Below the pieces are notes generated by a model. It worked only from the letters and a program-made list of their open reading frames with translations, ran no database searches and was not told where the DNA came from. Shown here piece by piece: positions 24,663 through 40,877 of a stretch of DNA of 62,876 nt. The number at the start of each line of letters is the position of its first letter. Position 1 is the stretch's first letter. The stretch spans positions 1 to 62,876 of the forward strand of contig CAJQKB010000029.1 of the NCBI GenBank assembly GCA_905478775.1. Reading direction: 5' to 3'. The translations under genes were made by a program, and so were the position numbers. This DNA comes from an uncultured Opitutales bacterium. Its GTDB lineage: Bacteria; Verrucomicrobiota; Verrucomicrobiia; Opitutales; Seribacteraceae.

Positions 24663-25478
24663 CTAACTAATTTCTTTTAGGTTTTTGGTAATGAGTTCGA
24701 ATGCCTCATCCACATCATCTACAATTTTAAATAATTCAATATCTTTGGGCGATATAACACCCCATTTAATAAATTGTTCAAAATTGATTAGTCCTTCCCA
24801 AAATTCGCGCCCGTATAAAATAATAGGCATTTGTTTACCCAGTTTTTTGGTTTGGATTAATGTTAATGTTTCAAAAAGTTCATCCATTGTTCCAAATCCA
24901 CCCGGGAAGACTACCACCGCTTTTGCGTGATAAAGAAAATAGAATTTACGTACAAAGAAATAATGAAACTCGAAGGATAATTCTGGAGTCGCATATTGAT
25001 TCACGCCTTGTTCAAACGGAAGACTTATACCCAATGCGATTGATTTACCTTTGGCCTCAGTCGCACCTTTATTTGCCGCTTCCATCATGCCTGGTCCACC
25101 GCCTGAACAAACATAATATTTATTTCCAGGCACTTCTTTAGTATCGGACCACTCTGTTAGGCGGAACGAAAGTTTTACGGCTTCATCATAGTATTTGGAC
25201 AATAGGACGATACTTTCCTTTTGAGCCAGTTCCGCTTGATCCTGATCTGAAATTGTTGCTTTTGAAGAAAGGCTTTTTTTGAATAACGAAAGTTCCTCCT
25301 GTGCTTCCTCCTGAGGTTTTGAGCGAGCGGATCCAAAAAAAACGATTGAGTTCTCAACTCCCTGTTCACGCAGCCGTACTTCAGGTTCAATTAATTCACA
25401 TTGTACTCGGATTGGCCGTGCTTCATGGCTATTGAGGAACTCTTTATTTGAATATGCTTTGGATAATTTTTTTGTCAT
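24663..25478 (-). CDS. LOG family protein (lysine decarboxylase-like, TIGR00730-type)
   Basis: This 271-residue Rossmann-fold protein has the two LOG signatures, SGGGPGMMEAANKGA and FPGGFGTMDELFE. The family includes cytokinin-activating nucleoside 5'-monophosphate phosphoribohydrolases and the nucleotidase PpnN; the older name lysine decarboxylase is wrong for most members. The first 90 residues form a longer N-terminal extension than in short LOG proteins. It points away from the duplicated cassette, and its 5' region shares 25479-25546 with that cassette's upstream region. Confidence 0.88.
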   Translation of the reverse strand: MTKKLSKAYSNKEFLNSHEARPIRVQCELIEPEVRLREQGVENSIVFFGSARSKPQEEAQEELSLFKKSLSSKATISDQDQAELAQKESIVLLSKYYDEAVKLSFRLTEWSDTKEVPGNKYYVCSGGGPGMMEAANKGATEAKGKSIALGISLPFEQGVNQYATPELSFEFHYFFVRKFYFLYHAKAVVVFPGGFGTMDELFETLTLIQTKKLGKQMPIILYGREFWEGLINFEQFIKWGVISPKDIELFKIVDDVDEAFELITKNLKEIS

Positions 25479-25528: not shown

Positions 25529-25545
25529 TAAAAAATGATTTTTTA
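25529..25545. repeat. A/T inverted repeat just upstream of cassette A promoter
   Basis: TAAAAAA-TGA-TTTTTTA, a perfect 7-bp inverted repeat ending one base before the TAAAG -35 element of cassette A. A longer inverted repeat occupies the equivalent place in cassette B. Confidence 0.55.
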
Positions 25546-25546
25546 C

Positions 25547-25573
25547 TAAAGTTGCGTGTTTAACGACCGATTA
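25547..25573 (+). promoter_or_regulatory. Sigma-28 (FliA)-type promoter, cassette A
   Basis: TAAAGTTG, 11 bp, ACCGATTA. The E. coli FliA consensus is TAAAGTTT-N11-GCCGATAA, so 13 of 16 positions match at the exact spacing. A start site 7-8 nt further would fall at about 25580, directly at the base of the 5' hairpin. A TATAAT overlaps (25572-25577), but no sigma-70 -35 is found at 16-18 bp. Confidence 0.65.
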
Positions 25574-25582
25574 TAATAATTA

Positions 25583-25707
25583 GCCGCAAGGATGCAGCCT
25601 CATTTATTACTGATTCAATCAACAGGAGGTCGATTAGAATCACAACCATAAGCAATGTCTTAGGACATTAAATTCAAATTGTTGTGATATTTATTCAAGA
25701 CTATCTA
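25583..25707 (+). promoter_or_regulatory. Conserved structured 5' leader, cassette A
   Basis: In order: hairpin 1 (GCCGCA-AGGA-TGCAGC, 25583-25598, one mismatch); a 36-nt block (25614-25649) with perfect AGGAGG at 25623-25628; stem 2, ATCACAAC (25639-25646) pairing with GTTGTGAT (25681-25688); and inside it a hairpin AATGTC-TTAG-GACATT (25654-25669). The block recurs in cassette B with one change, while both hairpins recur with different bases that still pair. Stem 2 would bury the in-frame GTG at 25684. No start codon lies at normal distance from AGGAGG. Confidence 0.6.
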
Positions 25708-25728
25708 GATAAAAAGGAATTGTTAACT

Positions 25729-25971
25729 ATGAGTGACGAATCAAACCAAACTGCATCTAAATTTAACACCCAACGGGATGTGATCTCATTCCCCTCTGAA
25801 GCAGAGGACGAAGTTACCAAAGAAGAAATTGGTAAATGGGTCGATCAATTAATGGAGATGCCCGAACCTGAAATTTCCTCTTCAGTATTCGTTCATGAAG
25901 GATGTAACGAACTTGATGATCCATTGACCTGTGTTGCAGAAAGAATTCTTTCGGAAGAAAGCTATCTGTAG
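25729..25971 (+). CDS. Small acidic protein, cassette A (possible FlgM-like anti-sigma factor)
   Basis: The protein is 80 residues from the ATG at 25729, or 95 from a GTG at 25684 that lies in a predicted stem. It is about 51 percent identical to its neighbour at 26233 with no gaps. Conserved blocks are VTKEEIGKWVDQLMEMPE and DDPLTCVAERILSEE; the N-terminal third is polar and variable. The last block resembles the C-terminal sigma-binding helix of FlgM (D..KIAxxLIxEA), and FlgM genes are themselves often sigma-28 controlled. The match is short and the spacing between helices differs, so the assignment is an inference. Confidence 0.7.
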   Translation: MSDESNQTASKFNTQRDVISFPSEAEDEVTKEEIGKWVDQLMEMPEPEISSSVFVHEGCNELDDPLTCVAERILSEESYL

Positions 25972-26032
25972 AATGCAATATTTTGGAAAATGAGGTATCT
26001 CATGATGAACCGACGAAATAGGTAAGAGGTTG

Positions 26033-26063
26033 AATCAAAATCTTTTCGTTAAAGATTTTGATT
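26033..26063. repeat. 13-bp perfect inverted repeat overlapping cassette B -35
   Basis: AATCAAAATCTTT-TCGTT-AAAGATTTTGATT. The right arm contains the AAAG of the sigma-28 -35 element. It could be an operator, or a hairpin ending transcripts from cassette A, although no T run follows. Confidence 0.7.
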
Positions 26064-26076
26064 ATACGGTCGACTA
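26050..26076 (+). promoter_or_regulatory. Sigma-28 (FliA)-type promoter, cassette B
   Basis: TAAAGATT, 11 bp, GTCGACTA: 12 of 16 positions match the FliA consensus at the exact spacing. Its position relative to the hairpin and AGGAGG block is the same as in cassette A to within a few bases. The -10 is weaker than in cassette A. Confidence 0.5.
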
Positions 26077-26084
26077 TAGTGGTA

Positions 26085-26211
26085 GCTACATGGATGTAGC
26101 CTCATTAAAATTTGGTTCAATCCACAGGAGGTCGATTAGAATCACAACCATCAATTTTGCCTAATTGGCATTTTTAACAATTTTGTTGTGATATTTATTC
26201 AAGACTATCTA
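26085..26211 (+). promoter_or_regulatory. Conserved structured 5' leader, cassette B
   Basis: Hairpin 1 is GCTACA-TGGA-TGTAGC (26085-26100), perfect here, with G-C in cassette A replaced by A-T at the fourth pair. The 36-nt block (26116-26151) contains AGGAGG at 26125-26130. Stem 2, ATCACAAC (26141-26148) with GTTGTGAT (26185-26192), is identical to cassette A. The inner hairpin is TGCC-TAATT-GGCA (26158-26170), unrelated in sequence to the AATGTC/GACATT of cassette A. The 27 bases from GTTGTGAT to 26211 are identical in both copies, then identity drops sharply. Confidence 0.6.
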
Positions 26212-26232
26212 AAAACGGATGAAAACTTAATG

Positions 26233-26475
26233 ATGAGTTCTGATTCTACTCATTTGAGTTCAAACTCCAGTAATCAGAGTGTGGTTATTACATTCCCCAC
26301 AGATCCAACTGAGGTAGTCTCCAAAGAAGAAATTGGTAAATGGGTAGACTTGTTAATGGAAATGCCGGAACTTGGGAATTCCGATGCTGATTTCATCAAC
26401 AAGGGACTTGAGCAATTCGATGATCCCTTGTGCTGTGTTGCAGAAAAAATTCTTTCAGAAGAAAATTTAAGATAG
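26233..26475 (+). CDS. Small acidic protein, cassette B (paralog of cassette A product)
   Basis: The protein is 80 residues from the ATG at 26233 (95 from the GTG at 26188). Identical blocks with the upstream copy are KEEIGKWVD, LMEMPE, DDPL, CVAE and ILSEE, while the first 28 residues have diverged: a sign of selection on the protein, not a recent copying event. There is no signal peptide or membrane segment. It converges on sixA with 3 bp between the stops. A FlgM-like role is proposed on the same grounds as for the upstream copy and is unproven. Confidence 0.7.
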   Translation: MSSDSTHLSSNSSNQSVVITFPTDPTEVVSKEEIGKWVDLLMEMPELGNSDADFINKGLEQFDDPLCCVAEKILSEENLR

Positions 26476-26478
26476 AAT

Positions 26479-26967
26479 TCAATTTTTTTTGGGATATTCA
26501 AAATTTTCGATTGCACAACTTCCCACTTCGAGAAAATTCCATTTATCGGTTTTACTACTTAAAATTACCACTCCACATGTTGGGATACTTGAGATTGAAC
26601 TCGATCCCAATAAGTTCGCGAGATGGGTAATGGTTGGGTTGTGAAATACTAAAGCAACGGAACTTATTTCTGAGGGAAATGTTTGAATTTTATCCAAAAT
26701 TGTAGAGGTGGATCCTTCGTATAGTAGTTTGTCATATTCTACTCTTTGTAAAGGACACCATTGAGCTTTAATTAATGCGATTGTTTCTTTTGCTCGGCAT
26801 GCAGTCGAAGAAATAATTTTTTCTGGAGAAGCGTAAAGGGATTTTAGTGTTTTGCCCATATTGGGGGCATCTTGTAGCCCTCTTGCATTTAATGTTCGTT
26901 CGTGATCTTGAATTTGGCTGTTGTCCCAAGAAGACTTTGCATGTCGAATTAAGAATAGGTTTTTCAT
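26479..26967 (-). CDS. sixA: SixA-type phosphohistidine phosphatase
   Basis: Histidine phosphatase superfamily, 162 residues from the ATG at 26967. The catalytic His is in FLIRHAKSSW (SixA-type RHxxS), the second His in VFHNPTI, and Arg in the RAKETI helix. SixA proteins remove phosphate from His of phosphotransfer domains or NPr. The longer frame from 27057 adds a stretch that would cover the promoter and start of the divergent lipoprotein gene, so I use the internal ATG. The target is unknown. Confidence 0.88.
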   Translation of the reverse strand: MKNLFLIRHAKSSWDNSQIQDHERTLNARGLQDAPNMGKTLKSLYASPEKIISSTACRAKETIALIKAQWCPLQRVEYDKLLYEGSTSTILDKIQTFPSEISSVALVFHNPTITHLANLLGSSSISSIPTCGVVILSSKTDKWNFLEVGSCAIENFEYPKKN

Positions 26968-27022
26968 TGCGGTAAGTTTTTTTCGTATTGCACGAGTCGG
27001 ACTATTCTTCACCATATCAATT

Positions 27023-27592
27023 ATGAGATCAATTATTCTTTCGTTCGTATGGATCACTTTTTACTTGGGGGGATGTAGTGATCAGGATCCCGAATCTGAC
27101 ACTCAAAACACAGAAACCGCTTTCATTGAAGTAGAGAAGAGCGAAGATTTGGTGATCGATGATCGATTTAGTTCAAAAGATCGTGATGTAGTCAAAATAT
27201 TTGCCGATTTTGAAAAACCGATTGCGACCTTTCCCACGATTGAGCAACGCGAAGCAGTTACCCAAAAAAATGGTCGTCTATATCGTAAAGATTTATGGGA
27301 CGAACCTTTTACCGGTACTGTGATTGAAAATTTCTCCGATGGATCACTTTCGTTAAAAACCTCTTATTACAGAGGATTACCCCATGGGCAACAAGTCAGG
27401 AATTTCTCCGATGGGCAAAGAGCCCTTGAGGCAAACTTTGATCAAGGTGTCCTTGTGGGGGTTAAATCGAGATGGTGGCCCAATGGAGTAATAAGGGAAG
27501 AGGCTTACTGGAGTGAAGGGAAGTATATTGGACGTCGTTTGTGGGATCGAACTGGACGACTAATAAAAGAGGAAATTACACCTCAAAGTTAG
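27023..27592 (+). CDS. Lipoprotein with MORN-like repeat variants
   Basis: The protein is 189 residues from the ATG at 27023. A signal peptide ends in the lipobox YLGGC, so the mature protein is lipid-anchored through Cys. After an acidic linker there are repeats of the form GxxxxxxNFSDGxLxLxxxYxxGLxHGxxxxNFSDG, then WWPNGxIREEAYWxEG, the MORN variant seen in bacterial antitoxin-like and surface proteins. A related but shorter lipoprotein occurs at 45713-46129. It is divergent from sixA, and its stop overlaps the convergent gene at 27589 by 4 bp. Function unknown. Confidence 0.82.
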   Translation: MRSIILSFVWITFYLGGCSDQDPESDTQNTETAFIEVEKSEDLVIDDRFSSKDRDVVKIFADFEKPIATFPTIEQREAVTQKNGRLYRKDLWDEPFTGTVIENFSDGSLSLKTSYYRGLPHGQQVRNFSDGQRALEANFDQGVLVGVKSRWWPNGVIREEAYWSEGKYIGRRLWDRTGRLIKEEITPQS

Positions 27593-30965: not shown

Positions 30966-31010
30966 CTAAAAGCTTTGCAATACGACCTTATATTTAGGAG
31001 GTTATTGTTA

Positions 31011-34000
31011 ATGTTTGTGCGCTTACCTATTTTTGCTCGTTGGAGTAATTGCATCCTCGTTTTTTGCAAAAGGTTGCTGGTTTGTTTGTTTTTGCTTTTT
31101 TTGTCTCAGCACAGAGGGTATTCGAGCAACCAAGATGGTAGTATGAACCAGACATATTCGGTGGATTGGAATGGTACGGTCTTCTTAGTGAGTGGGGATG
31201 GGTTTTTGAATTCATCCTTTCCCACTTTGTCATTATACGAAAATAATTATTATGTTTTTAACAATAACAGCACTGGGGAGTTTCGTTTTTCTGTAGGAGA
31301 AGATAACAATACTCAATATTCAGGCCTTGATGTTTGGAACAACGGGTCTTACAGCAGTGACGAATATTTGTTGTACTCCCCTGAGTTAAATTCTTCCCGA
31401 ATCCTTTACTACTTCAATCCCAAAGATAACGCTTCGGTTGGCCAAATTAATATTTCTCCTCATGATTCACAATTTTTTCATCCCCAAGTTAATGTAACTT
31501 CTTTTAAATTTGGTCAATCGGTTGCAATTAATGATTGGAACCAAACTATTATTGGTTCCCCGGGGGAGACAATATCTCATGACGGTGCAATTCATGTTTT
31601 CAATAAAGAAGTAAATGGAAGTTACTCTTACCTTGAAGAAATTGTTCCTCCTGTGCTGGGTCAAAATGGCCAGTTTGGCCATGCATTGGAAGTAGAAAAC
31701 CAATTTCTTTTTGTGAGTTCGCCTGATAGTTCGACTTATTCCGGTTTAGTCGATGTTTTTACTCGCGAATCGAATGGAAGTTATGGATTTACGGAAAGCC
31801 TGAATACCTTTGCAGATAATTTGGACAGTTTTGGTTGGGATATTTCTGCCTCTGGTAACTATTTGGCAGTCAGCTCACGACAATCCATCAACAATGGTGG
31901 TGGTAAAATCTCAATTTTCGAAAATAATGGTACGAATTGGGGTAATGTTACTGTTTTACGTGCAGATGATAATCAAAGTAATGATGAATTTGGTTACTCA
32001 TTAAACCTTTCTGGTTCTCGTCTACTTGTAGGTGCACCGAAAGCGGACGCTAATGGTACTGATTCGGGAGCAGCCTACATTTTTGAGCAAAATGGATCGG
32101 GATGGAATCAAACTGCAAAGCTATCTCCGAGTGGTTTATCGGCTGGCGATGAGTTTGGATATTCAGTCTCGTTAGCAAATAATTTGGCCTTCGTCGGAGC
32201 GAGGCAAAAAGATGGAAATAGAACTAATGCGGGAGCGGTTTATATTTTTCATCTTAATGGACTGAACTGGGAGCAGGTTTCAATAATTTATCCACCCCAA
32301 GACCAATCCAATCAGTTTTTTTCTTCTGACTTGAAAGTAAACTCGGATATTCTTGCTGTCTCCTCACCCAGTCAGGGTGAGGGGTATGTATATTTATATC
32401 GTGTGGAAAACAATGGTTCGAATATTTCATTGATTTCGAGCCTGGGTCTTGATGAGGCCAATTCCACGGATCAGGGTTTTCTTTCTATCGCATTGAAAAA
32501 TGGAACCGCGATAGTTGGAATTCCTGGAGATAGTACTTTTGCGGATGTCGGTGGTGGTGCTTTGGCGTTTCATAATGATGCATGGCAAATGAAGGTTTTA
32601 CCCGAGTTGGCGCCGATTATTGATCATAATGCATCGAGAAATCATACTATCGCGGAAGATAGTGGAATCTATCAATATGACTTCAACGGTTCACATCCAT
32701 TTGATTCAAATTTGATTTGGTCTCTATCCCTCCATCCAGATGGTAATGCAAGTTTTGATTTAAATTCTACTACTGGCATGTTTTCTTACACTCCAGATGG
32801 CAATTTTAGTGGAATTCATGAATTTCAAGCGACTCTTTCAAATGAAAATTACTTCGATGTAGTTGATTTTAATGTAACAGTCACACCGGTTCAGGATGCT
32901 CCAATATTTATTACCACCTCTCTTCCGTCAGGCATGGAAGGAGATGATTATAACCAAACTATCTCCGTTTTTGACGCCGATGATGATGACAACCTATCTT
33001 TGAGTTATAACTCGGCTTTAGTGGGTTTAAACGTATCCGGGTTTAATATTGTTGGAGTTCCGGATGGAGGAAGTGCGAATGGACAAGCATATCAGGATTA
33101 TAATGTTACTCTTTCGCTTAATGACGGGAATGTTAGTGTCCAAGGAATATTCGATATTCGGATTCTCAAGCGCAATAACCCGCCACAAATTTGGGTGAAC
33201 GGAGATTCTAATCTATCAGTTTTACCTGATATTACTCTAAGTGAGGATTTTAATGAGACTACTTGGTATGCCTCTTTACCATTTTTAGACTACAATGATT
33301 CAGACGGTCATTTGGTTGATCTTAATGTGACCGTTTATCCAACCTATGGGAATCTGACTTGGGACATTAATGCAACCGATTTGAACAGGAGTATTTCCTA
33401 TACTCCGCTTGTACCTCATTTCAATGGAATTGATTCCTTTACGATGATTTTAAGAGATATTGAAGGGGAGGGAAATAAATCTACTGTATTAACTTTTAAC
33501 TTGGTGGTTTCTCCAGTCAATGACCCACCAGTAATTTCGTCTGTGCCTTCCTCCACTGTCGTAAATGAAGGTGATATGTTTCATTACCCACTGGTGTTAT
33601 TGGACCCAGATCTTAGCGATGTGGGAAGCACGGAGGTGCTCAATGTGACGGTTGAGAACCTTCCTCCCAGTGGATGGTTGGAATACAATTCCACCACTCA
33701 GATTTTATCGGGTACGCCATCTTGGTCGGACTATGAGGACGCGGGACCGAGGCTAATAGTCATTAAGGTGTTTGATCATGCTGGATTGGAGGATACTCAA
33801 GCATTTACCCTTCAAGTTATCCCTGATAACTATCCACCAGTGATAACACAGGGGGCGACTTTCTCAACCTCCCTGAATGAGGATTCAGTTCTCAATACGT
33901 GGAGTGGGCTTGATTTATCCGTTACAGGATTAGACCAGACCTTGGGTACTTTAACTTGGGCAATTTCACAGCAGGCCCAAAATGGAACCGCATCGGTTAC

Positions 34001-37000
34001 AGGAACCGGAACAACACCCACTTCCCTGAGCTATCAACCAGATGGTAATTTTTCTGGAACTGATTACTTTTTAGTTCAAGTTTTTGAATCTTTGGATCCA
34101 AATGCTTCGGACGTAATTCGAATTAATTTAAATGTTTTGCCAGTAGAGGATGATCCGGTTTTTAAGAGTTTGACCTCAGGGGTGGCCATCCAGGATTTCC
34201 TATTTGACTATAATATCACAACTTTTGATGCAGACCTTGGTACAAATGTAACGATTTCCTCTCTTGTTCCTTTACCTGGGTGGTTAAGCTTAAGTGATTT
34301 TGGGAATGGTTCGGCACGATTGAGGGGCACACCTAATCAATACGACCTTGGTAATAACTTAATCGTGCTCGAAGTTCGCGATCAAACGAATCGATTTGCA
34401 GTTCAGGCTTTTATGCTTGTTGTTTTGGATGAAAACACCAATCCAGTCATCGCACAGGGAGAAACCACCACCTTTGTGCATACAGAGGATCTGGCTTGGA
34501 ATGGAAGTTCGCTCATTTCCGCAACCGATATAGACGGACAATTCTTAAATTGGACTCTCAAATCGAGCCCGTCCAATGGAAGTGTTCAAGTTTCTGGTCA
34601 GGGTTCATCGCCCCCTGTTTTAGGCTATATTCCTGATTCTAACTTTTCAGGTTTGGATTCATTTCAGGTTGAAGTCAGTGATGGAATTGGAAGTGATTTT
34701 ATTACCATTAATTTGAATATTCAAAATATTGACGATGCACCCGTTTTTTCGATTCTTCCCACCGATCAGGTTACGATCGATAACCAAAGTTTTGCCATTT
34801 CTCCAAAGGTATATGATGCAGATAGCCTAGTTGGAAGCGAAATTCAATTGACTGGTCCTGCATGGCTCGGAGTTTCCTCTTTTGATCGTTCCACCGGAGT
34901 TGTTCAATTGGCAGGAGTTCCTGGGGAAAGTGATGAAGGTAATTCATCCTTTTCTTTACTAATTACCGATTCAACTGGATTGTATAATTCCGCTGAATTT
35001 AAAGTTCAGGTGCGGGTTCTTAATTATGCACCATTAATCAATTCTGGTTCGGCGTCGGTATCGGTTACAATGATCGAGGATGATAATACAAGTTGGAGTG
35101 CACCCAATTTAGTTGGTGCTGATCACGAAACTTCTGCAAATGATTTAGTATGGTCTTCCACTAAGCCCAACTTTGGTTCCGTTTCCGTTTCGGGTACTGG
35201 TTCTAGTCCGGTTACTTTTGATTATTATCCTGACGGAAATTTTTCTGGCTCAGATTTCTTTACAGTTATGGTAACCGATGGGGGTGGGATTGAGGGATCA
35301 CCTCCTAAATATGATACGATTTTAGTGAATGTGGAAGTTTCTCCTGTAAACGACGCTCCGGTTTTTATTTCCACCCCAATGACGGACAGGAATGAATCTT
35401 ATAGTTGGAACGATGAATCAGTCTATATTTATCAGGTAAAAACCTATGACGCAGACTGGAATTATGAATGGCACACCATTGATCTAAATGTCAGTGGGAA
35501 TCTACCGGAATGGTTAACTTTTAAAGATGAGGGAAATGGTACCGGACTTCTTTATGGATTGGCTTCCGTCCAAGAGGAAGGAAATTATACTATTTCTCTT
35601 GAGGTTTTTGATTCCAATCAAACTTCAACGATTCAGAATTTCACGCTGGAAATCAGAATCGATAATTACCCGCCAGTTTTTAAGTCAGTCAGCGAAGCGA
35701 ACAAAATAATTTCTGAATTAATTGTATATGTTGATGAGGATTCTAATCTAAGTAGTTCCCGGGGCGGATGGGTTGCCCCCTCAGACTACATAGCTGAAGA
35801 CCCTGATCCGACAAAGCCATCAGCAATGCCCCTGACTTGGACTTTGGCAGAAAATCCTAATAGTGGGGCAAGTGTAGTAGTTCAGGACTCTCCTAATTTC
35901 GGTGTACTTGACAGGCAACGACCTTATTTATTTTCTTATCTTCCCAGACATAATTTTTTTGGTGATGATATTATCAAGCTCAAAGTGAGCGATGGTAATC
36001 GAAGTTCTATCCTTCCTGTACGGGTAAAAGTAAGAGCTCTTCCTGATGCCCCCACTTTTACCACATCGTTTGACTCTGTATTAGTGGCAAAAGAAGGAGC
36101 TCAGTTCAGCTTGGATATTTCAACTGTTGATCCTGATAATAGTCCGAGGACTATCAAGGTTTTTGGACTACCATCAGGGGGGAACTCATGGCTCAAGCTG
36201 GGTGACCAAAATAGTACCAATGGGAGTGCTCGCTTGTTTGGTGTTGCCCCTTCGCAAAGTAGTGGCGATCGATATCAACTTGCTTTTGTTGTTACCGATG
36301 AGACAGGTCTATTTTCAGTGCTCAATTGTCAACTTGTTGTGGATGGAAAGAATTTAAGCCCTGTAATTGACGCTGGTTCCTTCATGACCATTCGTTTCGA
36401 TAGTAGTGGACAAGCACATCCTTCTGATATCGCTCGATTATATGCAAGTGATCGCGAGGGAGAAAATCTTCTCTGGAGTCTGTCTCCCAATTCTTTACCC
36501 TCCTTTGGTACGGCATCTGTATCTGGGAATGGAACCTCAAATCCTCAGATTAAATACCTTCCTTATTCTTCTGTGCAAAAGGATCGCTTTGGGATAAGGG
36601 TATCCGATGGGGTAAGTTTTGATGCAATTGAAATTACTGCCATTATCGTTGAAAACTTCGATTCATTTGATGTTACTGAACCGACGATAACTTCCACATC
36701 AGCAGGGCTTATTTTCTCCGATCATTTTAAGATATCTAATCTGACCCGGAACTCGGTTACTCAAGCACTAATGCTTCAAGGTCCAGCATGGCTAAAAGTG
36801 AAAAAAGTGACATATGATTTATTTAAGTTAGAGGGTATGGTTCCTGATAATGTTACTGGAGACTTTGCAATAAAACTTTCCTTTTTGGAAAATAATCAAC
36901 GGAAAGCGCTCAAAGAGTATACTTTGAAGGTTTTAAATATTTCTCCTCCTCAACTCAGTCTTAAAGGAGATCAATTTATTCAATTAAGCGTGGGGCAAAC

Positions 37001-40000
37001 ATTTTCAGACCCGGGTTATCTTTCCACTGATCAAGACGGAAGTGATTTAAATGACAGTGTTGAAGGTGCTGTAGATACAAGTCAAAAGGGTATTTATCAA
37101 ATTACTTACCGCTCGGAAGATTCTTCAGGGAATTTTTCAGAATTAAAAAGAACTGTTCAAGTTGTGGATCGAAATGACAGCGTTCGTATATCGAATATTA
37201 CTTCAATACTCCCAGTAGGACTTGATACTTTTGCAGTTTTAAAAAACGGATCTTTTTTACTTGGCTCTTCGTCTGAGTCGGAAGCAATAGTATCCAAATA
37301 CGATAATTATGTAGAGCTCTCCCATCCAATTCACACACTAAGATTTAAAGCACAGAAAATTTCGATTGAACAAATTCTGGAGCTAAAAGACGGAGGTTTT
37401 TCAGTCTGTGGCGTCTTTCGTGGGAATTTAGAATTTGGTAAGAACTTAGTGACTTCGAAAGGAAATCATAATGTTTTTATTCTGAGACTAGATAATAATT
37501 TCAAACATGTTTGGTTAAAGACTATTTCCTGTTCCTCTACCTTGTCTAATTTAGAACAAATGGAAACTATCGATCAATCCATTCAAATTGCGGGAAACTT
37601 TCGAGAACAACTTAAACTCAATTCCCAAAATTGGAATGCACAGGGTGAGAGCGATAATTTTGTCATGAAATTATCAGATTCCGGAGAGTTGATATGGCTC
37701 AAGACTTATGGAGGTGAGGGAACGGAGGAAATGGTCGGGATAGGAGCATTATCAGATGGATCTTTTGTTACAGTAAGCAATTCAGTGAAAGAAAACTCTC
37801 CGTCCTATTCTACTTTAGTTAAATTCAGCAAAGACGGAGTCGTAACCGGAGGGAAGTCCTTCCCCAATGTTAACTTGAATCAGTCGCTCGGTCTTGAATG
37901 TATAAATGATTCACTATTGGTTGTTGGGCAATTTGAAACTCAACTAGTCATTGATTCTATGGCAATTTCTTCCAGTTCCCTTTCGAGTGGGTTTACTTTA
38001 TCCTTTAATTCTGATCTCGAATTAAATTGGATGAAATCCTTTTCTTCTACTGGAAGTACTTCTGTACGGGAAGTCCAGACAGATCGATTTGGATATCCAA
38101 TTGTTGTTTTAAATTACGATGGGAACTTGTCGATTCCTGGCAGTTCGCTCATTCATCAACCGTTAGGATTGAATGATTTGATGCTTATTAAATTAGACCC
38201 GATTACCGGAGCAATCATTTGGGAAGAACCAATCAGCACAGCAGGGAATGATCTTGTCAAAGAGTTTCAAGTCGGTCCATTTGGAACTATCTTATTAGGG
38301 GCTTCTTTCACTTCGCCATTTAGCTTAAACGAATTTTCATATTCTGTGGGAAATCAGTTTTTGGTCCAAGTTGAATCTATTCTGGGGAAACCGACTTTTA
38401 CTTCCTTTTCTAATTTGAATCTTCAGGGAAATACTTTTTTTCATCAGGAAATTAAAGTTCTCAATCAACCGTTTGTCCGAATGGAGTTAATTGAATCTCC
38501 TCCGTGGATGAATTTTCAAGATAACTTAAATGGAACAGGCATGCTTGGTGGTGTTCCATCTAGTACGATTTCCAGTACTGGAAATGTAAAGGTTCGAGCA
38601 TACAATGGAGATGGTGGTATTTCTGATTTAGATTTTAATTATTCTGTTACAAGTAATCCCGAAGCAATAATTTCTAATCAAACATTACCCTCTTTTTCTT
38701 CTGCGCTTAATTTTGGTAAAGAAGTCAATATTTCTTCTACTACTCCTTCATCAGATGGAAAATACTTGATCGGTGGTACCTTTTCTCAATCAGTTAAATT
38801 AGGGCAAACTATTCTTCGCAGCCAAGGCCAAAAAGATGGCTTTGTCGCAAAGGTTTCTTTGAGTGGAAATATAGATCGTTCGGTACAATTGATCAGTTCA
38901 GGTGATTTATCTGTAGGCTCTACGATTCTTGGACTCGATGGCGAAATTTATATTATTGGAGACTTTAGCGGAGATCTTCAAATTGGTCCTTTTAGTATTC
39001 AGTCTTCGGGTGGATATGACTTATATGTGGCTCAATGGTCAGAAGATGGATCTTTGAAAAACCTGAGCTCAATTGGAAGCTCCTCCAATGAGTACTTTCA
39101 GGAAGCTTGCTTTTTTCAAAATAGTCTTTTTTTGACAGGACAATTTGACGGAACTTTCTCCCATGGTGCTTACTCTGTTAATTCAAATGGAGGAAAAGAC
39201 GGCTTTGTTTTAGAAGTCCCCTCGATTGATATCTCTTCTGCTACCTGGTTACAAAGCTTTGGAGGAATTGAAGACGACAGGGTTGATGCTCTTGCTATTT
39301 CATCAATGGGCAAAATTTTCCTTGCTGGTTCTTATCAAGGAACTTCTTCTTTTGGAGATATTACCCGTCAATCACTTGGACTGTCCGATTGCTTTGTCGG
39401 GGAACTCAATAATAAGGGAATTTGGCAAAATATTTACTCTGGTGGCGGAGAAGGAGCAGATGAGGTCAATGGCCTCTACATTCAAAAAGAAAACCGGGTA
39501 GTGATTGCTGGTAATTTTCGAAACTCGATGAGTTGGGGAAATCGAGAAGTGATAAGTAACGGGAAGCAGGATGGTTTTATTGCTGTTCTTACTGATAAAG
39601 GAAATTGTATTTCCTTCAATGCCTACGGGGGTACTGGAAATGATTCAATTGACTCAATTCAGAAAAATTCGATTCACTCTTATTTTGTTGGTTCCTTCTC
39701 CAATGAAATAAAATTGGGTGAAAAAACATTCTCAACATCCGGTAAGAAAGATTCTTTCTTAGCAAAGCTCAACCAAGAGGGTACTAGTGTAATTGATGCC
39801 GTGCAGATCGGAGGGGCAGGAGATGACTTAATGAAATCTATTACCAGTGCATTTTCTGGGCATATACTGACTACAGGAATAACTACTGGAATAATGGACT
39901 CAAGTGGATCTTTATCCACCGCGGAGAACGGATCTCTTAATTCGTATATCGCACTATGGGGACCCAGCCAGTTTATTCCCATTCTTTCTCCTACACCTAA

Positions 40001-40877
40001 AAAAAGCATACCCACATCCAGTATGTATCGTTATGAATTCAACTCTGGACCTTGGCCGAGTGGGACCGAGGTGACCCTCAATAATGTGCAAAAGCCGGAT
40101 TGGTTAAATATAGACCTTTTTACAGATGGCAGTGGTTTAGTTTGGGGAAAAAGTCCAACTACAGATAGTCCCGATGTAACAACGGTGAGATTTGATATTA
40201 ATTCGACTAGCCTTCCAGGGCTGACCGCTGAATGGCAAGTTAAAGTTTTAGCGAATGGAAGTGCTTTCTCTGTTCTTGGAAACCCAGTTTTGAATGGAGT
40301 TCAATTTGAACCATACCGCTCCGAATTCATACTTACCGGTTCATCGTTTGATAATATTTTAATAATACCCGAGGGTTTCCCAAAATGGTTACAATTAAAC
40401 CGCATATCGAATAATCGATTTGTGATCGAAGGAACACCATTAGAAAGAGACACTGGAACTTTTCCGATTCAGGTATTTGCCGACAAGTTCATCGATCAGA
40501 ATTTTAGTTATCAAGAAACTCTTGAATATTCCTTAACTGTTCAGACTAAAATGTCTCAAGAAGCAACCTTGACTAATTTGGGGGACTGGAAAACAAATTG
40601 GTTAGGCTATTTTAATACATTTGATAATTCATGGACTTATCACGAAGATTTTTTATGGATCTATTTAGTGGCTGGTACCCAATCCGATAATATCTGGTTT
40701 TGGACTGAAAGATGGGGATGGTCCTGGACCAATACAGAAAATTGGGACGCCACTAAGGGGGAGGGCTATTTATACAACTCTTTGCTTTCGGACTGGTTGT
40801 TTTTTAGAAGAAAGCAAGATAACGTACCATCTGCTGTTTACCACTACAGTTTGAAGAAATGGCTTTCCTATGAATGA
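31011..40877 (+). CDS. Giant secreted repeat protein (FG-GAP, cadherin-like, SBBP-like, Trp-rich tail)
   Basis: The protein has 3288 residues from the ATG at 31011, chosen because a perfect AGGAGG lies 8 bp upstream; 12 earlier codons are in frame. An N-terminal signal sequence is followed by FG-GAP-type propeller repeats (about 160-525), a long array of cadherin/Ig-like domains with NDAPVF and PDGNFSG motifs (about 530-1980), a DUF5011-like Ig domain (about 1985-2056), two SBBP-like propellers (about 2060-2460 and 2555-2980, GGxxxDxxxA motifs) separated by an Ig-like domain, two more Ig-like domains and a Trp/Tyr-rich C-terminal domain of about 100 residues. It is a probable cell-surface adhesin or matrix protein. 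It is Asn/Ser/Asp-rich with very few Cys. Confidence 0.88.
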   Translation: MFVRLPIFARWSNCILVFCKRLLVCLFLLFLSQHRGYSSNQDGSMNQTYSVDWNGTVFLVSGDGFLNSSFPTLSLYENNYYVFNNNSTGEFRFSVGEDNNTQYSGLDVWNNGSYSSDEYLLYSPELNSSRILYYFNPKDNASVGQINISPHDSQFFHPQVNVTSFKFGQSVAINDWNQTIIGSPGETISHDGAIHVFNKEVNGSYSYLEEIVPPVLGQNGQFGHALEVENQFLFVSSPDSSTYSGLVDVFTRESNGSYGFTESLNTFADNLDSFGWDISASGNYLAVSSRQSINNGGGKISIFENNGTNWGNVTVLRADDNQSNDEFGYSLNLSGSRLLVGAPKADANGTDSGAAYIFEQNGSGWNQTAKLSPSGLSAGDEFGYSVSLANNLAFVGARQKDGNRTNAGAVYIFHLNGLNWEQVSIIYPPQDQSNQFFSSDLKVNSDILAVSSPSQGEGYVYLYRVENNGSNISLISSLGLDEANSTDQGFLSIALKNGTAIVGIPGDSTFADVGGGALAFHNDAWQMKVLPELAPIIDHNASRNHTIAEDSGIYQYDFNGSHPFDSNLIWSLSLHPDGNASFDLNSTTGMFSYTPDGNFSGIHEFQATLSNENYFDVVDFNVTVTPVQDAPIFITTSLPSGMEGDDYNQTISVFDADDDDNLSLSYNSALVGLNVSGFNIVGVPDGGSANGQAYQDYNVTLSLNDGNVSVQGIFDIRILKRNNPPQIWVNGDSNLSVLPDITLSEDFNETTWYASLPFLDYNDSDGHLVDLNVTVYPTYGNLTWDINATDLNRSISYTPLVPHFNGIDSFTMILRDIEGEGNKSTVLTFNLVVSPVNDPPVISSVPSSTVVNEGDMFHYPLVLLDPDLSDVGSTEVLNVTVENLPPSGWLEYNSTTQILSGTPSWSDYEDAGPRLIVIKVFDHAGLEDTQAFTLQVIPDNYPPVITQGATFSTSLNEDSVLNTWSGLDLSVTGLDQTLGTLTWAISQQAQNGTASVTGTGTTPTSLSYQPDGNFSGTDYFLVQVFESLDPNASDVIRINLNVLPVEDDPVFKSLTSGVAIQDFLFDYNITTFDADLGTNVTISSLVPLPGWLSLSDFGNGSARLRGTPNQYDLGNNLIVLEVRDQTNRFAVQAFMLVVLDENTNPVIAQGETTTFVHTEDLAWNGSSLISATDIDGQFLNWTLKSSPSNGSVQVSGQGSSPPVLGYIPDSNFSGLDSFQVEVSDGIGSDFITINLNIQNIDDAPVFSILPTDQVTIDNQSFAISPKVYDADSLVGSEIQLTGPAWLGVSSFDRSTGVVQLAGVPGESDEGNSSFSLLITDSTGLYNSAEFKVQVRVLNYAPLINSGSASVSVTMIEDDNTSWSAPNLVGADHETSANDLVWSSTKPNFGSVSVSGTGSSPVTFDYYPDGNFSGSDFFTVMVTDGGGIEGSPPKYDTILVNVEVSPVNDAPVFISTPMTDRNESYSWNDESVYIYQVKTYDADWNYEWHTIDLNVSGNLPEWLTFKDEGNGTGLLYGLASVQEEGNYTISLEVFDSNQTSTIQNFTLEIRIDNYPPVFKSVSEANKIISELIVYVDEDSNLSSSRGGWVAPSDYIAEDPDPTKPSAMPLTWTLAENPNSGASVVVQDSPNFGVLDRQRPYLFSYLPRHNFFGDDIIKLKVSDGNRSSILPVRVKVRALPDAPTFTTSFDSVLVAKEGAQFSLDISTVDPDNSPRTIKVFGLPSGGNSWLKLGDQNSTNGSARLFGVAPSQSSGDRYQLAFVVTDETGLFSVLNCQLVVDGKNLSPVIDAGSFMTIRFDSSGQAHPSDIARLYASDREGENLLWSLSPNSLPSFGTASVSGNGTSNPQIKYLPYSSVQKDRFGIRVSDGVSFDAIEITAIIVENFDSFDVTEPTITSTSAGLIFSDHFKISNLTRNSVTQALMLQGPAWLKVKKVTYDLFKLEGMVPDNVTGDFAIKLSFLENNQRKALKEYTLKVLNISPPQLSLKGDQFIQLSVGQTFSDPGYLSTDQDGSDLNDSVEGAVDTSQKGIYQITYRSEDSSGNFSELKRTVQVVDRNDSVRISNITSILPVGLDTFAVLKNGSFLLGSSSESEAIVSKYDNYVELSHPIHTLRFKAQKISIEQILELKDGGFSVCGVFRGNLEFGKNLVTSKGNHNVFILRLDNNFKHVWLKTISCSSTLSNLEQMETIDQSIQIAGNFREQLKLNSQNWNAQGESDNFVMKLSDSGELIWLKTYGGEGTEEMVGIGALSDGSFVTVSNSVKENSPSYSTLVKFSKDGVVTGGKSFPNVNLNQSLGLECINDSLLVVGQFETQLVIDSMAISSSSLSSGFTLSFNSDLELNWMKSFSSTGSTSVREVQTDRFGYPIVVLNYDGNLSIPGSSLIHQPLGLNDLMLIKLDPITGAIIWEEPISTAGNDLVKEFQVGPFGTILLGASFTSPFSLNEFSYSVGNQFLVQVESILGKPTFTSFSNLNLQGNTFFHQEIKVLNQPFVRMELIESPPWMNFQDNLNGTGMLGGVPSSTISSTGNVKVRAYNGDGGISDLDFNYSVTSNPEAIISNQTLPSFSSALNFGKEVNISSTTPSSDGKYLIGGTFSQSVKLGQTILRSQGQKDGFVAKVSLSGNIDRSVQLISSGDLSVGSTILGLDGEIYIIGDFSGDLQIGPFSIQSSGGYDLYVAQWSEDGSLKNLSSIGSSSNEYFQEACFFQNSLFLTGQFDGTFSHGAYSVNSNGGKDGFVLEVPSIDISSATWLQSFGGIEDDRVDALAISSMGKIFLAGSYQGTSSFGDITRQSLGLSDCFVGELNNKGIWQNIYSGGGEGADEVNGLYIQKENRVVIAGNFRNSMSWGNREVISNGKQDGFIAVLTDKGNCISFNAYGGTGNDSIDSIQKNSIHSYFVGSFSNEIKLGEKTFSTSGKKDSFLAKLNQEGTSVIDAVQIGGAGDDLMKSITSAFSGHILTTGITTGIMDSSGSLSTAENGSLNSYIALWGPSQFIPILSPTPKKSIPTSSMYRYEFNSGPWPSGTEVTLNNVQKPDWLNIDLFTDGSGLVWGKSPTTDSPDVTTVRFDINSTSLPGLTAEWQVKVLANGSAFSVLGNPVLNGVQFEPYRSEFILTGSSFDNILIIPEGFPKWLQLNRISNNRFVIEGTPLERDTGTFPIQVFADKFIDQNFSYQETLEYSLTVQTKMSQEATLTNLGDWKTNWLGYFNTFDNSWTYHEDFLWIYLVAGTQSDNIWFWTERWGWSWTNTENWDATKGEGYLYNSLLSDWLFFRRKQDNVPSAVYHYSLKKWLSYE

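Follow-up and report, generated by a model that had tools for sequence, protein, structure and literature searches.

In Campylobacter jejuni, the leader of the flagellin mRNA flaA folds into two stem-loops with CANGGANG-type loops that bind CsrA; CANGGANG hexaloops constitute the high-affinity CsrA site, and the flgM mRNA of the same organism is bound by CsrA as well (PMC4894983). In Bacillus subtilis, translation of the flagellin mRNA hag is regulated by CsrA together with FliW (PMC6529632, PMC7652899), and the SELEX consensus for CsrA is RUACARGGAUGU (PMC7652899). The locus described here lies in a window of 62,876 nucleotides (the whole stretch of DNA that was analysed) from an uncultured Opitutales bacterium and comprises two tandem units, regarded in the initial annotation as an arrangement of no known kind. 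This view is not supported: the leader of the units also forms the 5' end of flagellin mRNAs, it is built like CsrA-bound flagellin leaders, that of C. jejuni flaA among them (PMC4894983), and the encoded protein is most probably a divergent FlgM. On balance, we favour the reading that each unit is a late flagellar gene under sigma-28 (FliA), with a CsrA-binding two-hairpin leader common to it and flagellin mRNA, and encodes a divergent second FlgM paralogue.

As in C. jejuni flaA, a predicted sigma-28 flagellar mRNA begins with two adjacent GGA-loop stem-loops with compensatory changes, and both FliW and CsrA are encoded in the genome. Unlike flaA, the module is common to flagellin and a small FlgM-like gene, the latter with a third stem over its GTG start codon and with hairpin 2 about 50-60 nt upstream; the GGA motifs are spaced by about 35 nt as compared to 21 in flaA. 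The parallel to the hag/FliW/CsrA homeostasis of B. subtilis lies in the CsrA-FliW flagellin circuit itself, although the phylum and the leader differ and no report of that organism having a second FlgM behind the same leader was found. The CsrA-FliW-flagellin loop, known mainly from Bacillus and Campylobacter, is thereby extended, on sequence grounds, to uncultured marine Opitutales. The open-access literature (titles, abstracts and term counts, with few subscription journals) yielded neither CsrA/FliW control of flagellin in Verrucomicrobia nor a description of a second FlgM. The features of the locus are as follows.

24663-25478, minus strand: flanking gene of the LOG/Lysine_decarbox family, divergent, conserved; same neighbour in genus g3
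25546-25574, plus strand: unit 1 promoter of sigma-28 type, CTAAAGTT ... CCGATTAT; elements and spacing match relatives
25583-25598, plus strand: unit 1 hairpin 1, GCCGCA-AGGA-TGCAGC, with CANGGANG as candidate CsrA site 1; covariation
25612-25641, plus strand: unit 1 hairpin 2, GATTCAATC-AACAGGAGGTC-GATTAGAATC, with the AGGAGG loop as candidate CsrA site 2; covariation, 98% of cells paired
25639-25688, plus strand: unit 1 stem 3, ATCACAAC paired with GTTGTGAT, including the GTG start
25684-25971, plus strand: small protein copy 1, probable FlgM-like paralogue, 95 aa, GTG start
26033-26063, plus strand: A/T inverted repeat between the units, overlapping the -35 element of unit 2; from sequence
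26049-26077, plus strand: unit 2 promoter of sigma-28 type, TTAAAGAT ... TCGACTAT; from sequence and relatives
26085-26100, plus strand: unit 2 hairpin 1, GCTACA-TGGA-TGTAGC, close to the CsrA SELEX consensus RUACARGGAUGU; covariation
26114-26143, plus strand: unit 2 hairpin 2, AGGAGG in the loop; covariation
26141-26192, plus strand: unit 2 stem 3, including the GTG start
26188-26475, plus strand: small protein copy 2, probable FlgM-like paralogue, 95 aa, GTG start
26479-27057, minus strand: flanking gene for a SixA-like histidine phosphatase, convergent, conserved; same neighbour in genera g3 and g4

Unit 1 spans positions 25546-25971 and unit 2 positions 26049-26475, each with a sigma-28-type promoter, hairpin 1, the AGGAGG block, a further stem and a 95-codon ORF. 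This order, as originally proposed, was found in both units and recurs in relatives (promoter, hairpin 1, AGGAGG block, stem, ORF); the proposed repeat unit of about 430 bp gives way to a leader-to-leader period of 502 bp (leader starts at 25575 and 26077). The proteins had been described as about 51% identical over 80 residues; their length is 95 aa when counted from the GTG, with 53-54% identity between the copies. GTG (25684 and 26188) is invariant in all 23 sequences aligned, and the protein sequence of the first eight codons (MIFIQDYL) is conserved despite changes at third positions, the variation in codons 2-8 (IFIQDYL) being mostly synonymous or conservative among the 23 sequences, which together mark GTG as the start of the small ORF. 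The ATG starts that would give 80-aa products (25729 in copy 1) were rejected, as relatives do not share them. The suggestion that both copies are under selection stands: between-species Ka/Ks values of 0.16-0.24 (copy 1) and 0.21-0.36 (copy 2) indicate purifying selection on both ORFs. Homology searches recovered the small protein from many genomes of the genus and family, the named relatives being Opitutales/Opitutia and Verrucomicrobia records, mostly MAGs. Two copies were seen, among the genomes searched, only in the window's own genome, G006 and G008; the duplication is older than the split of these three species.

An A/T inverted repeat, originally assigned to each unit, is clear only before unit 2 (about 26033-26063); before unit 1 it amounts to a short A-run/T-run that relatives do not retain. 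The repeat at 26033-26063 is retained in one of the two other duplication-bearing species and weaker in the other. This nearly perfect 13-bp inverted repeat might serve as an operator or terminate transcription of unit 1.

The proposed sigma-28 control is supported. Promoters of relatives show TAAAG, a constant -35 to -10 spacing and a CGAYTAT-like -10 element, a comparison made on sequences with correctly located elements, with a few other rows read by eye. The exact pattern CTAAAGT-N10-17-CGAYTAT occurs at just three sites in the 2.78-Mb genome (this locus and contigs C45 and C164), one of which precedes a flagellin-domain gene, and a FliA homologue in the same genome (C168) passes the NCBIfam cut-off. 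Consensus promoter, fixed spacing and FliA homologue, the hallmarks of a FliA (sigma-28) regulon, are hence found together. No CsrA-type leader was found at the genes on C45 and C164; since these carry the promoter without the leader, the latter is not simply part of the promoter. On C45 (L049, 483-2011), the ORF immediately downstream of the sigma-28-type promoter has a flagellin N-terminus and, after it, a region with an HExxH motif, resembling flagellinolysin-type flagellins. On C164 (L050, 1500-2127), the exact promoter is followed by an ORF of 192 aa whose N-terminus is signal-like.

A conserved RNA leader, as originally suggested, is borne out by consistent pairing of hairpins 1 and 2 and stem 3, with covariation. 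Hairpin 1 of unit 1 forms the 5' end of the predicted transcript. Across 24 sequences, 95.6% of the cells of hairpins 1 and 2 are paired, as compared to 19-37% in slid controls, and compensatory changes occur at 7 of 17 pairs, in both helices, so that the structure is not due to chance; most weight is given to the slid controls and the count of double-change pairs, as shuffle controls ignore kinship. For stem 3, 95.3% of the cells are paired. In the small-gene leaders, both loops have an invariant GGA, and hairpin 1 always shows CANGGANG. Stem 3 of unit 1 encloses a small variable hairpin and shares AUC (25639-25641) with hairpin 2; in single-sequence folding of this unit, the hairpin 2 and stem 3 alternatives both appear (minimum-energy fold versus centroid), the stability of single-sequence folds being unremarkable (z -0.7 and -1.5). 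The GTG lacks an ordinary Shine-Dalgarno (SD) sequence nearby, and the AGGAGG of hairpin 2, about 50-60 nt before the GTG in g1 and g2 genomes (g1 being the window's genus), is the sole SD-like sequence upstream of it. That AGGAGG might serve as the Shine-Dalgarno of a short upstream ORF was rejected by eye, as no conserved start codon follows it. Rfam searches with the window, the region and the flagellin loci gave no credible match (a weak snoRNA match with E 0.41 was taken as chance), and the RNA family described here is absent from Rfam.

At E<=1, a covariance model built from hairpins 1 and 2 (R1) had matches in 41 of the family's 42 genomes, the weakest ones being unreliable; outside the family it matched only three genomes, with marginal E values of 0.003-0.006. 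Homologous leaders, which the initial annotation had proposed to seek in related genomes, are thus found as a conserved element in four genera of a single Opitutales family. Strong matches in G009 (C13), G003 (C66) and G025 (C17) revealed further small proteins behind the leader; a match on G009:C38 (E 0.004) was taken as chance, since it precedes another kind of gene (translation judged by eye). Second-tier matches in g1, g3 and g4 precede flagellin-like ORFs behind a like promoter, namely on contig C80 of the window's own genome and in G008, G012, G013, G004, G024, G028, G029, G032, G034, G036 and G061. The hairpins of these flagellin leaders covary independently of the small-gene leaders. 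In the flagellin leader on C80 (L092), hairpin 1 is TCACAAGGATGTGA and includes ACAAGGATGT, which exactly matches ACARGGAUGU, the core of the SELEX consensus for CsrA. The flagellin leaders are 102-809 nt long and contain additional CANGGANG hairpins: 12 of them hold 40 occurrences of CANGGANG versus about 1.1 expected, figures that serve as a guide only because the sequences are related. In g4 flagellin genes, the GGA hairpin GAGACAAGGAGGTCTC stands directly before the ATG, over the ribosome-binding site. In the g4 leaders L099, L100, L101 and L103, a second GGA hairpin, GAGACAAGGAAGTC, lies about 290 nt upstream of the flagellin start; the sequence after it, ATGCAACTTAGCAATTT, opens a short ORF and resembles a degenerate version of that start.

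CsrA (MLILSRK...LRREI) and FliW are encoded by adjacent genes in the window's own genome (C44), and each was found in 34 of 57 genomes, with the genes adjacent. GGA hairpin loops with covariation thereby coincide with CsrA and FliW in one genome, as in known CsrA-binding flagellar leaders, and binding of CsrA to the leader is strongly inferred. The sole family genome without the leader, G033 (91% complete), gave no match for the small protein, CsrA, FliW or FlgM, and no FliA above the cut-off. In G008, G014 and G027, csrA and fliW were not found despite the presence of leader and FliA, perhaps because these assemblies are incomplete.

Searches of Pfam, NCBIfam and PDB with the small protein returned no credible match, including no direct match to Pfam FlgM, and the g3 and g4 orthologues likewise gave none to this family (PF04316). 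In g3, however, the same leader and LOG/SixA flanks precede proteins of 86-91 aa that match a Pfam-positive FlgM of g3 in blastp (E 1.8e-5 and 3.4e-7 in a nine-sequence set). Against a template of FlgM sequences recovered by profile search from the own genome and relatives, hhalign gave probabilities of 96.9% for g3 (E 1.8e-10), 93.0% for g4 (E 3.4e-7) and 88.0% for the whole small family; for g1 and g2 together it gave 37.2% (E 3.5e-4, score 24.9), as compared to at best 1% and a score of 14.1 in 40 column shuffles. It is the C-terminal half of the small protein that aligns, matching the conserved C-terminal part of FlgM. Hence, the bridging g3 and g4 orthologues behind the same leader are clearly FlgM-like, as judged from these alignments, and the small protein of the window is most probably a divergent FlgM paralogue; its FlgM ancestry is inferred from profiles, intermediates and synteny, the direct link from g1/g2 being modest.

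Small size, the C-terminal helical pattern and the profile link through sister genera thus connect the protein with FlgM (PF04316), and a sigma-28-type promoter is also seen, by eye, at several FlgM genes of the class. It differs in the missing direct family match, a new N-terminal motif (MI[FYH][IF]xDYL, conserved in the small proteins and absent from the FlgM proteins found), the long CsrA-type leader and its coexistence with a true FlgM. Free FlgM is largely disordered, and a low-confidence AlphaFold model of the small protein (pTM 0.28; mainly disorder, apart from two helices at the C-terminus and a short pair of helices at the N-terminus) is for this reason compatible with FlgM but no evidence for it. 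A profile search revealed a separate FlgM in the own genome (C154) as well as in many relatives, so that the small protein as the only FlgM of the genus was rejected and a second anti-sigma factor would not be required; a profile of FlgM plus the g3 proteins found the separate FlgM and missed the window locus. Upstream of the separate FlgM gene (L146), a sigma-54-like promoter, TGGCAC-N5-AAGC, was seen by eye, while the FlgM-like paralogue has a sigma-28-type promoter.

From these elements, a circuit may be proposed in which FliA would transcribe the flagellin and small-gene mRNAs simultaneously. Before hook completion, intracellular flagellin would hold FliW, leaving CsrA free to bind the GGA loops of both mRNAs; upon flagellin export, FliW would be released and CsrA blocked, and translation of both mRNAs would shift together, with the FlgM-like product, as a putative anti-sigma factor, then trimming FliA activity. 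As both mRNAs carry the same CsrA-type leader, they should respond jointly to free CsrA, and one RNA switch probably sets both the filament protein and the FlgM-like brake on the sigma factor. In g1 and g2, CsrA at hairpin 2 should alter access to the start, because the GTG lies in stem 3 and the base of this stem has three nucleotides in common with hairpin 2. Repression is argued for by hairpin 2 carrying the only SD-like sequence before the GTG; activation would be allowed by its competition with the stem 3 base, which conceals the GTG, and translation might start at the GTG by initiation across the folded spacer. More tentatively, we regard it as conceivable that this lineage has a circuit of its own, with one RNA module tying both the translation of flagellin and the production of a dedicated second anti-sigma-28 factor to flagellin export via FliW-CsrA; hairpin 2 and stem 3 would be mutually exclusive, such that CsrA could open the start codon instead of closing it. 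Should the small protein prove to be an anti-sigma factor, a single RNA module would join the translational loop of flagellin to the transcriptional loop of sigma-28.

A different emphasis would place the RNA first, with the two tandem leaders acting as sponges for CsrA, buffering it for flagellin, and the protein being secondary. The C. jejuni flaA mRNA is indeed both a CsrA target and a sponge (PMC4894983), the duplication has doubled the number of leaders, and all four genera have kept hairpins 1 and 2 while the ORF varies in its N-terminus and start region. Nevertheless, both ORF copies are under purifying selection (Ka/Ks 0.16-0.36) and retained in all four genera, which argues that the protein matters too, and the leader lacks the many repeats of CsrB-type RNAs; we deem a primary sponge role improbable. 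A possible though less favoured view accepts the leader as a CsrA target and assigns the protein, even if derived from FlgM, another late-flagellar role, for example as a partner of flagellin or of FliW/CsrA. The extreme divergence from FlgM, the N-terminal motif and the separate FlgM in the same genomes would suit such a role, against which stands the alignment of the C-terminal region with the conserved part of FlgM.

That the leader senses a metabolite, temperature or another protein, with coincidental GGA loops, appears very unlikely. Stem 3 does mask the start codon, in switch-like competition with hairpin 2, and the role of CsrA is proposed from the leader sequence; yet the GGA loops are conserved while stem sequences drift, flagellin leaders contain extra CANGGANG hairpins, one of them over the g4 ribosome-binding site, and no Rfam family matches the leader. 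Elsewhere in the window, positions 30975-40877 hold a 3300-aa ORF with many repeated stretches, possibly encoding a surface protein.
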